DNA from: Mesostigma viride
Lineage: Eukaryota > Streptophyta > Mesostigmatophyceae > Mesostigmatales > Mesostigmataceae
DNA: 64,000 nucleotides
Assembly (NCBI GenBank): GCA_009746045.1
Contig: RPFO01000240.1
Location: 942,042-1,006,041 of the forward strand
Direction of reading: 5' to 3'
Below the pieces are notes generated by a model. The model saw only the letters and a list, made by a program, of their open reading frames with translations, was not told the DNA's origin and ran no database searches. Shown piece by piece: positions 26,364 through 37,544 of the stretch (position 1 is the stretch's first letter; every line of letters begins with the position of its first letter). Made by a program: the position numbers and the translations under genes.

Positions 26364-28680
26364 TCACTGGTGTTGCATCGTCATGCGCTTGCGCAACACT
26401 GCGTACTGCGGGGCAGCCTCCCGCGCCTCCTTGGTGAGTGCATCCGCGGGATTGAGTTCATCCGCGATGTGCTGGAGACGCGTGACGCAGGAGGCCGCCT
26501 CAGCGAGTACGAGGTAATCAACGTCCTGTGACCGCGCATAGGGATTGTCAAGGAAGGCCAAACAACTTTGTGAGTCAGTGTGCACCGTGCTAGTCCAGTG
26601 AAGAGTGAACCCACACGAGCCAAATACCCAACCCAGCAAGTACCGCAGCCACATGCCATGTGAGATAGCTGAAACAATGCCCCGGCATTCAGCCGTGTTG
26701 GGGCTAGTGGCAATGCGGCTGTGCAAGCGCGAGTACCAATCTAACAACATGCCAGGCTGTCCCTCATTGCTAATAAAGAACAGTGCCCCCATGCGGGCCC
26801 GCACTTGGCTGACTGTGCGCGTCTCTAGATTAGCATCCGTCACTATCTCGAGGTGCACCGGCTGTGAGCAATCGAGCCCACGAAGCACAATGCCGGGCGT
26901 CATGGCCAGCTGCCGCCGAACATGAATGGACCCTAGTCCTTCCAGCACATCATCGGGCAGGCGAGCGAGCACTGCCAAATCAGGTGCCACCGTGTCCGCC
27001 AACCACCCGAGCTTGCCCTTAACCGAGGGCCCATGGGTTGCCAACAGCGGGACGGGAGGTCGGCCAGCAGGTCAACCACATAGTTGCGGCTATCCTGCAT
27101 GTGCATGACCCATTCGCCAGAACGCGAATCCCGCTGCAACGTAGACTGCACGCCGCAAAACACCACGGGTTTACCCTCCTCATGATCCACCGCCCTGCCC
27201 AGGGGAAACTTAGCCGCCACTGCAGCAAGAAACTGTGTAGCAAAGGTGCGAGGTGCCACCAGCTTGAAGTCATCGCCATGCCACACGAAGAGGGCTGGCT
27301 CGCCAGGGACGCCGGTGGGGACCACAAAGAAGTTAGGATCCGCGCGATGGTACGTGGCCCCTAAGCTCTGCAAGACCTCCTCCGCGGAAATGCGGAAGAT
27401 GATGGGAGAGCTCTGCAGCCCCTCCACCCCTGTCAACAGCTCGATATACTCGCTGCCAATGGTGCCATCCTGCCAGACCACCGGGACCTTCACCACGTAG
27501 CGGGTGCCTTGCCATGTTTGCTGCGCGACCCCAGCGTCGCTGTGGAGGAATGCCCGCTGAAAGTCACCGCACCACATCCCGTAGTCCTTGCCCGCGTTCC
27601 GCTTGCCCAAGTAGATGACCGTCAGTAGCCGATGCGAAACATGGTTGAGCCCAGGGGTATAAAGATCCTTGGCATCCAGCGGGGAGGACCCCTTCGTCTC
27701 CGTGACCACGGGCCTTACCCGGAACACCACCGAAGAGTTGGTCTCGTCCGGCTTGTAGGTGAGCACGAACTTCAACCGCAACCGCGTGGCCCCGGCTGGC
27801 ACACTCTCCAATCCTCGGTAGACCTCGCGCTCTCGCCACTGCTCCTTGGCTCGAATGAACGCGTCGCGCCACAAAGCAAACTTGAGAGGATCTTGACAGT
27901 CCAGGACAAGTTGCTCCCACGTCACAGGGCTATCCGCCGCCAGTGAGTGTGAGTGGAGGCCGAAGCTGCGCGGGTGCCAATCCTGAGGCTGAATGATGGA
28001 CTGGACGAGCGGCGGTGTGGAAAACGCCGCCATCGGTAAGCGCCGCACGACGCCGGGCTGCCCGACCACCACCCCAATGGAGCGTGGTACTCGCGAAGCG
28101 GGATGCTGCCCACCCCCGCGACTGACAGCAAGTCAGCGGACACTGAGAACCCCGGGTATGATACGAAAGGTTCGCCCAGCAAGGCCACATCCTCGTAGCC
28201 ATCCACGACGTGAAACGGCGTGTCAATGCCCAACACCGGCAGCACCACCATCCCGGTAACTTGATATGCCGAAGTGCCTGCAAAGTCGGTCACCGATTTG
28301 TACGGCGACTCTAGCACTGGATACAGGGTGGCTGCCCGACGAGAGATAATAGACACGGATGCTTGCGTGTCCACAGCCACCAGCTGCCACGGTCTACACG
28401 TAGGAAACAAGGCTGACTTAACCGGCCTGACCCCCTGTGAGAGAGTTTTGACCTGAGCCACCCCTGATGCAGCTTTCGCTTTAAGCGCCTGAGCACGCCA
28501 CAAGGCCGTGACCGTTGAAGCCAGGTCCCTAGGTGGGCGAGGCGCATGGGCAGGACCCTGACCCTCCGGCGAGGCCACGCTAGGCGGGCCTCCCACATTA
28601 TCCGTGGCTAGCACAGGAGGTGAGTCACTACGTGCACTAGGTCCCGTCAAACCCACCCCATCCTCATCCCACCCATCCAC
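26364..28680 (-). pseudogene. Copia C retropepsin-like, RT and RNase H (frameshifted)
   Basis: The counterpart of the intact 772-residue ORF at 60887-63205. It carries VDTQASVSIISRR and ALLGEPF (protease-like), LRLKFVLTYKPD, GDFQRAFLHSD and VWHGDDFKLVAP (RT, with HGDD as active-site box), then TDANLETR, AECRG, TDSQS (RNase H) and a terminal NPADALTK block. Two deletions break it relative to C': one C lost near 28075 (CCCC against CCCCC) and one G lost near 27050 (GGG against GGGG). Both are in homopolymers and the LTRs look identical, so sequencing or assembly error is possible. Confidence 0.88.
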
Positions 28681-35800: not shown

Positions 35801-37544
35801 CCATTCCTGTTGCAAGCATAGCGTAAGTGTTTTTGTCAAGTTTGAGTTTCTCAAGGAAGGAACGCAGCAAGAACTTGTGATCTAGCTGCTGGACATCTGG
35901 ACGTGCTTTGATGGCTAGCTCATATTTCTTTGTCTCAGCCACATAGTCCACGGATGTGACCCTGTATTCCTCTACCCACCTGAATGCCCCATATATGTCC
36001 ACAGATGAGGGTGTGGAGAGGAGGTCAGTTAGCTCCTTCATGAAAGCCTCCCAAACTGCCCTAGCCTGCGTGTCCTGCCACTTGGGATATCTACGCTGGA
36101 AGACAAGGATGAGATTCTGAATCTGAGAGGAGGACTGATGGTAAAAATCCCCCTGCATGAGAGATCCAAACCAATTCTTGACATTCAGTTCCTCCCTAGC
36201 CAGCTGAAGAGAGAGAAGTGCATGATTCCCCTGCTCCCTAGTATACCCCTCAGGCAGCCCCCTGACATTAATCCTATCCACAGGACGGTTTTCATTGTAA
36301 GTGGGCAACCTAGAGGGGGATGCAGGGGGAGAGGGAGAAGATGGTGTTGCTGCTGCAGCATTCACAGGAGAGACATGCTGAGAGGGAAGTGCTACTTGAG
36401 TGAGCTGAGCAGTAGGGGCAATCATGGGCTGTGTAGGAGTGTTAGGCAACATAGGGGTGGGCTGGGTGGGGGTGTGAGTGTGTGTCACTTCCCGCCTCCT
36501 GCTGCGGGCCTCCTCCCAATCATGGAAGGTGGGAGAGAGGGACACTTCATCGTCAGTAGGGTTAGTAAAATCATGATGTAGCCAGGTAGGCAGCCACCTA
36601 CCCGCCCCTGCCAGGATGGCATTGTGCAGGAGCTCCAGGAGGCGCACCAGGGCAACCCTGCTGCCCTGCACCCTCCTTCCTGAGAGGAGGGCCTGCAGGG
36701 CAGGCAGCAAGTCGTCACACACCCTGCGTGTGTCTGCATGGAGGTTGGGCAAGCCATGCAGGATGTGCGTGATAATCGCACACACCAGGCTGCCCGCCTC
36801 CGCGACGTGCATCTGCTGGCTCCGGTCGGCCAGCCCACGGAAGGAGGCTGTGGCTGCCTGTATGGCACGCCACACGGCCTCATCACCCAGGGTGATGAAG
36901 TCCCGACCTTCCAGATCGCCGTCCAGCCGTGCTGGCTGCTGCCCAGCCCTGGTGGGACCCTGAGGCCCCTCCGGCCCTGCCAGGGACTTGTCCCTGTTGC
37001 GGCTAGAGGGGGCCTGCCCCCCAGAGCCGCTGGAGGTGCCCGTGACACCCTCCATGGGGGCTGCATCCCCCGCCAGCGCCGGAGGCGCCGGCGTCGCTGC
37101 CGGGGTCCCTGCGACCCCGGGAGCTTGCGTCGCCGCCGGGGTCCCTGCGACCCCGGTGGCCTCCTCAGCCACCTGGCCCCCCACGCTGGGCGGGGGAGCC
37201 CGCTGCTGAGGTTGGACCCTCTGACCTGCCAGAGGGTCCTGGGTGGGTTCACCACCCATGGGCGTGGTCGGGGCGACTGTCGCCCCGCGCTCCGTCGCAG
37301 GCGGCATCGCAGCCGCCTCACGCCTCTCCGGGCCCCAGCCAACTGGCGTGACTTGGGGCCACGGCCCCAACGGAGTCAACGCAATCTCCTGCGTGGCGAC
37401 CACTCGCAGCGCCTCTCTCTGACGCTGTCTGGACGCCCACTGATCCACAGTGCCGGGGTTTCGCCGCGGCCTATTGGTGTAACACCACAGCCAAACTGCC
37501 ACCTGAATCAGGTGGAACTGCATCCGCAGACGATGCTCGATCAT
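32831..37544 (-). pseudogene. Copia D gag-integrase-protease-RT polyprotein
   Basis: A 1576-residue ORF (stop created by the LINE tail at 32814). Capsid-like part at residues about 430-620; poly-Asn run at about 678-735; Cys/His region RCTRCGMKYH...CHKCHG at about 745-785. Integrase: LHFLYGHE and CQHC at about 870-905, D near 933 (GDVFHI), D near 985 (LLLDQQF), E near 1013 (GIIERAI). Retropepsin-like domain: VAVDTQAQVSII near 1300 and ALLGDPF near 1365. RT start: LRLKFVCKHK near 1515. All are in one frame, so the order INT-PR-RT is directly visible in a single polypeptide with no protease before integrase. The protease motif is DTQ. Confidence 0.92.
35339..35513 (-). repeat. AAC/GTT trinucleotide microsatellite (poly-Asn in Copia D gag)
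   Basis: About 57 near-perfect GTT repeats on the plus strand encode an Asn run in gag, just after a Gly/Lys-rich GKGKGKGK segment. The antisense frames give long Leu, Val or Cys runs that are artefacts. Confidence 0.95.

Follow-up and report, generated by a model that had tools for sequence, protein, structure and literature searches.

Integrase ahead of a retropepsin-like domain in a lineage of LTR retrotransposons from Mesostigma viride

Domain order is a criterion by which the superfamilies of long terminal repeat (LTR) retrotransposons are separated, with protease, integrase, reverse transcriptase and RNase H (PR-INT-RT-RH) in Ty1/Copia elements and PR-RT-RH-INT in Ty3/Gypsy elements. 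In a survey of 80 green-plant species, all 5410 elements kept had the Copia order GAG-PROT-INT-RT-RH, and elements of unexpected order were discarded as likely mis-predictions (PMC6317226). The International Committee on Taxonomy of Viruses profile gives the same domains for the Pseudoviridae in its available sections (PMC8515867); Troyka is described with the Gypsy order (PMC12440569), and Gmr1 as a Ty3/Gypsy lineage with a Ty1/Copia-like INT order (PMC2774666). The Mesostigma genome papers treat LTR elements in bulk, and "copia" and "gypsy" appear nowhere in the main text as accessible (PMC6947507, PMC7027972). No description of the order INT-PR-RT-RH was found in the literature searched, which lay chiefly outside subscription papers and was in part available as excerpts. 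Here we describe three elements, A, C and D, first noticed from sequence alone in a 64,000-nt stretch (the window; contig RPFO01000240.1, positions 942,042 to 1,006,041) of the Mesostigma viride assembly GCA_009746045.1 (440 Mb, 2243 contigs), in which INT precedes a retropepsin-like domain that directly precedes RT.

These elements resemble Ty1/Copia (Pseudoviridae) in having INT before RT-RH, an RT nearest to Pfam RVT_2, a gag zinc knuckle and LTRs, and differ from them in that PR follows INT, the LTR ends are AGTT...AACT and PR lacks the DTG glycine. With Ty3/Gypsy elements and retroviruses they share a PR directly ahead of RT-RH, whereas INT stands at the front in this lineage and at the end in those. 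INT is displaced relative to kin, as it is in Gmr1 so far as the available description goes; in Gmr1 PR lies ahead of INT, unlike in the Mesostigma lineage. The predicted PR fold is like that of DDI1 retropepsin-like domains and retroviral proteases, from which it differs in reading DT[QNM] for D[ST]G and in that N-terminal strands were not seen (they are hardly modelled in D). We consider it likely that M. viride harbors an LTR retrotransposon lineage with a Copia-like RT and a Gag-INT-PR-RT-RH polyprotein in whose cutting PR acts.

Domain order of elements A, C and D

All features of A, C and D given here lie on the reverse strand. Element D (23815..38657) is complete, is bounded by identical LTRs (5' 38200-38657, 3' 23815-24272; 458/458) and a GGATC target duplication, and carries element C inside it. 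Its 1576-aa open reading frame (ORF; 32814..37544) encodes gag, zinc knuckles, INT, PR and the start of RT in one frame. Two CCHC-like knuckles at the end of Gag (35178..35306) are followed by INT (34065..34934), which has HH-CC and D-D-E motifs (D931, D984, E1014), a C-terminal part and a match to Pfam rve (E 0.073). Then come the retropepsin-like domain (VDTQ ... ALLG; 33390..33650), assigned by AlphaFold and structure comparison, and RT with the first part of RNase H (31795..33020), which holds a small insert at 32733-32826. Element C is inserted in the RNase H part of D, which resumes at 25636, and the RNase H end (TDSQS ... ADALTK; 25340..25636) lies beyond it. Copy 1 of C (25641..31793) is likewise complete, with identical LTRs (5' 31449-31793, 3' 25641-25985; 345/345), an AAACC target duplication, gag with zinc knuckles (29984..31429), INT (28647..29963) and a retropepsin-like domain recognized by its VDTQ ... 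ALLG motifs (28123..28383). Because C sits inside D, the interval 28647-37544, treated as one unit in the original prediction that drew attention to this locus, mixes two elements. A second copy of C contributes PR-RT-RH in one open frame of 772 aa (60887..63205; PR about 62648-62908) and an INT truncated by the window end (63210..63998). Element A (10402..22698; target duplication GTTCT) is decayed, with LTRs at 22082-22698 and 10402-11018 that are identical at 608/617 positions; a 627-aa ORF (15251..17134; rve E 0.018) carries INT, PR (VDTN ... ALLG; about 15665-15925) and the start of RT in one frame. The three ORFs on which the original prediction relied, in D, A and C copy 2, were all found where it had placed them.

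The termini AGTT...AACT are common to the three elements, each has a 5-bp target duplication, and paired LTRs, target duplications and gag-pol mark them as LTR retrotransposons. They integrate in the ordinary retroviral-type manner; a 5-bp duplication is also that of Copia. LTR identity shows that the insertions of C and D are recent, and an M. viride gene model is 99% identical to the protein of element C.

Between INT and RT, A, C and D each carry VDT[QN] and ALLG motifs, and motifs and predicted fold agree on the proposed succession of INT, retropepsin-like domain and RT. Because the AlphaFold models of the intervening domain of C and D match retropepsins, the domain order of the lineage is Gag-INT-PR-RT-RH, and not the PR-INT-RT-RH of Ty1/Copia. 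A genome search for D-type elements scored 62 matches among 7908 candidates, of which 58 had no stop in the matched INT-PR-RT part. Sixteen of these loci (L035-L049 and L050), the window's own among them, were read on 15 contigs, and INT>PR>RT was found in every one, as in A and C of the window; a single open frame ran from zinc knuckle to RNase H end in 8/16 and from INT to that end in one more. The corresponding search for C-type elements scored 58 matches from 8255 candidates; PR-RT-RH was free of stops in every one of the 58, and the same INT-PR junction was present in all 30 that were given as loci. That the elements are chimeric or misassembled copies is thus scarcely credible: A is decayed and lies amid inverted duplications, but the order is the same in all D-type loci read and the junction in all C loci, and a Mesostigma gene model, P0004, also joins the C-terminal part of INT to PR. 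The suggestion of a stable lineage, as opposed to a rearranged copy, was therefore upheld. In a fourth Mesostigma family, represented by gene model P0002, PR-RT-RH with DTM ahead of RT was found; the position of its INT is not visible because the model begins at PR. At one D-type match, G000:C2045:272840-274987, the search gave an open frame 18754 aa long, which may reflect a stretch of N in the assembly.

The order would be ordinary if a cryptic second protease lay between Gag and INT and the domain before RT were an extra copy. The one motif that could point to it is an LDTGA just upstream of the INT of C and in its frame, which recurs in L001-L003 and in 4/4 of L031-L034. No second retropepsin motif (hydrophobic-hydrophobic-G) stands at the proper distance from it, however, and the three Protein Data Bank (PDB) matches of the C Gag-INT linker were all unrelated, none being a retropepsin; from its sequence we take this LDTGA to be fortuitous or, at the most, a remnant. 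In D, no D[ST]G occurs in the 81 residues from the last zinc-knuckle cysteine to the first INT histidine; the D ORF has two such triplets, both inside INT. The gag-INT stretch of A also has two, and their reading frames end after 3 and 57 residues. Apart from the LDTGA of C, the claim that A, C and D have no protease between gag and INT was thus confirmed in this search, and a cryptic protease in that position is very improbable.

The retropepsin-like domain

An AlphaFold model of the D domain (predicted local distance difference test [pLDDT] 78.1) was compared with the PDB, and retropepsin domains accounted for 50 of the 50 matches listed; the top PDB row for the AlphaFold model of the C domain was also a retropepsin. 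The original prediction had allowed that no aspartic-protease fold might exist near VDTQ/ALLG, but the predicted fold is that of a retropepsin, and on these models we regard the fold of the domain between INT and RT as settled. The profile search for a protease after rve, proposed at the same time, returned weak matches, and the fold was decided by AlphaFold and structure comparison. Pfam scans of the whole ORFs gave no protease match; the best match for C was gag-asp_proteas at E 0.21, the sole one among four members to match. Retroviral-type proteases made up 7/8 PDB profile matches (three named for human immunodeficiency virus 1 [HIV-1]; E 0.095 to 1.2), with no single stretch passing alone, and the PR-RT-RH alignment had no PDB match.

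The catalytic D[ST]G triplet is not found in the lineage. The motif reads DTQ in C and D, DTN in A and DTM in P0002, and its D and T are invariant across the four families aligned. To our knowledge the glycine is fixed in known retropepsins. The domain is the most alike of the three domains compared in all three pairs: identities for C-D, C-A and D-A were 53.5, 43.0 and 48.8% for PR, 41.5, 32.8 and 33.8% for INT and 39.8, 34.1 and 25.3% for the RT core, values that depend on the limits of the slices and, for A, on a decayed RT. With P0002 included, identities were 38-54% for PR and 25-48% for RT (6 pairs each). Between D of the window and L050, the ratio of nonsynonymous to synonymous divergence (dN/dS) was 0.057 over 72 PR codons, at a dS of 0.88 and with DTQAQVSII unchanged, and 0.04 over 245 INT codons. 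These sequence comparisons indicate purifying selection on PR within a constrained INT-PR-RT region. The PR-RT-RH frames of the two window copies of C are separated by two indels, 8 synonymous changes and 2 nonsynonymous ones.

A retropepsin fold might also have been retained without protease activity, as a structural link to RT or a dimerization module, with the polyprotein cut by a protease of the host or of another element, or left uncut. In the four families the DTG glycine has given way to Q, Q, N and M, which speaks for this, as does the frame change of C described below, which separates products and so lessens the need for cutting. We nevertheless find it rather unlikely, given the invariant D and T, the unchanged DTQAQVSII at that divergence, the low dN/dS of PR and its higher identity than INT and RT in all three pairs compared. 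In the reading that we prefer, PR is proteolytically active; it would act as a dimeric retropepsin that cuts the polyprotein and tolerates Q, N or M in place of G. The lineage has a retropepsin that lacks an otherwise fixed residue of the catalytic loop and is still under strong constraint.

Frame change in element C and affinities of the lineage

Elements D and C would be expressed differently. D would yield one long product. In C, the PR frame is -1 relative to the INT frame in 28 of the 30 loci and +1 in the other two, which include copy 2 of the window, and INT is on the same side of the frame change as Gag. Part of the overlap of the two frames in copy 1 (28692..28710) contains the slippery-type heptamers CCCCCCT and GGGCCCC in the phase that -1 frameshifting would require. 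The predicted products of C are Gag-INT and a longer Gag-INT-PR-RT-RH, the latter made by -1 ribosomal frameshifting where INT and PR overlap. Because INT lies on Gag's side, integrase of C would be produced at the Gag level, and the element is a possible case of this arrangement. Four C loci were read upstream: one frame ran from the knuckles to the INT end in two, from the Gag start to mid-INT in one and from the knuckles to mid-INT in one.

The spacing between the second and third catalytic acidic residues of INT is 29 in A, C and D, shorter than the usual 35. The D-D-E described originally for D is DD(29)E in A and D, and in C the third acidic residue is D, giving DD(29)D. The best PDB match of the INT alignment was 6rwl, "Pol protein" (E 0.027), which we take to be a simian immunodeficiency virus integrase; C INT and P0003, searched singly against the PDB, gave one chance match apiece. 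P0003, a protein labelled Prorocentrum lima that is 60-61% identical to the RT of D, matched RVT_2 (E 6.9e-6, 26.3 bits against a curated cut-off of 31.6) and not RVT_1. The D piece matched RVT_2 at E 0.019, P0002 and C2 did not match it, and RVT_1 matched none of the lineage proteins scanned. INT lies upstream of RT-RH, as in Ty1/Copia, and neither the downstream INT nor the RVT_1-type RT of Ty3/Gypsy was found. The sequences thus lend weak support to kinship of the RT with Copia. Of the original label "Copia-like", the stable INT-PR-RT-RH lineage stands, and the Copia kinship comes down to one RVT_2 match and INT before RT. Since the defining order is absent and the placement of RT is inconclusive, we do not file the lineage as a member of Copia.

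The order had been ascribed to a protease that moved. The order itself was found; that PR was the moving part was not, because PR keeps its retroviral and Gypsy place directly ahead of RT, and an integrase moved to the Gag end explains the arrangement equally well. A related possibility is descent from a Ty3/Gypsy-type element (PR-RT-RH-INT) by a shift of integrase from end to front, which would need a single move and would account for a PR directly before RT as in Gypsy and retroviruses. Such ancestry is improbable, for the RT of P0003 matches RVT_2 and not RVT_1, whereas the Gypsy RTs of the window match RVT_1 (E 2e-29 and 4.6e-26). The HxxxxH-CxxC and ADALTK motifs also look Copia-like.

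Several observations weigh against a Copia-like lineage with a working protease. Against Gypsy proteases, hhalign itself gave low probabilities, 3.5 and 1.6%, and 1 of 200 shuffles exceeded the better score. None of the four families has the DTG glycine. The D model has only 13 residues before the catalytic aspartate, and its matches begin at HIV residue 17, so that N-terminal strands were not seen; the full model of C also lacks a confident N-terminal strand (mean pLDDT 44.5). PR is not alone in being constrained: at 0.074, the dN/dS of the PR-to-RT stretch of window D and L050 (150 codons) comes close to that of PR. RNA structure after the slippery site of the window's C was not stronger than in shuffles (z 0.08, 1.34, 1.45), in none of the 4 C loci read upstream did a single frame stay open over the whole of Gag and INT, and the RVT_2 match of P0003 falls short of its cut-off. 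With these points in mind, we only tentatively raise a broader proposal, which may well prove too strong: that this is a family-level lineage with INT on the Gag side of the frameshift, and hence produced in capsid amounts, and with a working retropepsin without the DTG glycine, which would add a pol order to those of Copia, Gypsy/BEL and Gmr1. If true, the lineage would offer a natural experiment on the extent to which the retropepsin active site is required. The lineage, with many copies, recent insertions and selection on its proteins, shows that other domain orders exist, and survey filters may hide them.

Distribution and other features of the window

Protein searches, each of which scored the roughly 8000 best word-sharing candidates, returned six distinct relatives, three from Mesostigma and three labelled Prorocentrum lima (P0003, P0005 and P0006). 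Absence of relatives elsewhere is weakly indicated because of that number of candidates. P0006 is identical to the Mesostigma protein P0004 over 114/114 residues, and occurrence in a dinoflagellate was set aside, contamination being likelier than transfer. P0003 and P0005 are 60% and 87% identical to D, and from the identity of P0006 and P0004 we infer that they are contamination also. The Prorocentrum lima protein set of EukProt seems to include sequence from Mesostigma. A search of IMG/VR with one protein gave three pattern matches, none of them a relative.

In Ty1/Copia a primer-binding site complementary to initiator tRNA-Met is usual. The leader sequence is different in each of A, C and D, and by eye none has an evident match to a tRNA 3' end, no host tRNA set having been compared; ARAGORN in its bacterial setting found no tRNA genes in the window, and the longest complement for self-priming was no more than 7 bases. 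An extra short ORF lies directly after the 5' LTR and ahead of the gag ORF in D (37581-38159) and in A (21329-22057). The nucleocapsid region of D contains a long in-frame asparagine run (35335-35508), and a glutamine run occurs in an ORF apart from D (45231-45394). A repeat of ~94 bp occurs at 32733-32826, where it breaks the RT of D, and at 44752-44843; the copy in D is flanked by a 13-bp duplication, ATGACTATATATG, and is read as a small mobile element.

Pieces of A-type sequence form large inverted duplications and a palindrome at 6096-15086, with ~95-99% identity. Elsewhere in the window, Gypsy pieces at 48136-52173 and 58635-60095 have protease, RT and RNase H, a weakly matched gag and a separate integrase with a chromodomain, and an identical direct repeat of 513 bp (55898-56410 and 58062-58574) lies near them. 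An ORF at 52788-54809 encodes a transposase, presumably of the piggyBac type, that matches DDE_Tnp_1_7 at E 1.8e-50 and has a zf-Tnp_2 match just under the cut-off.
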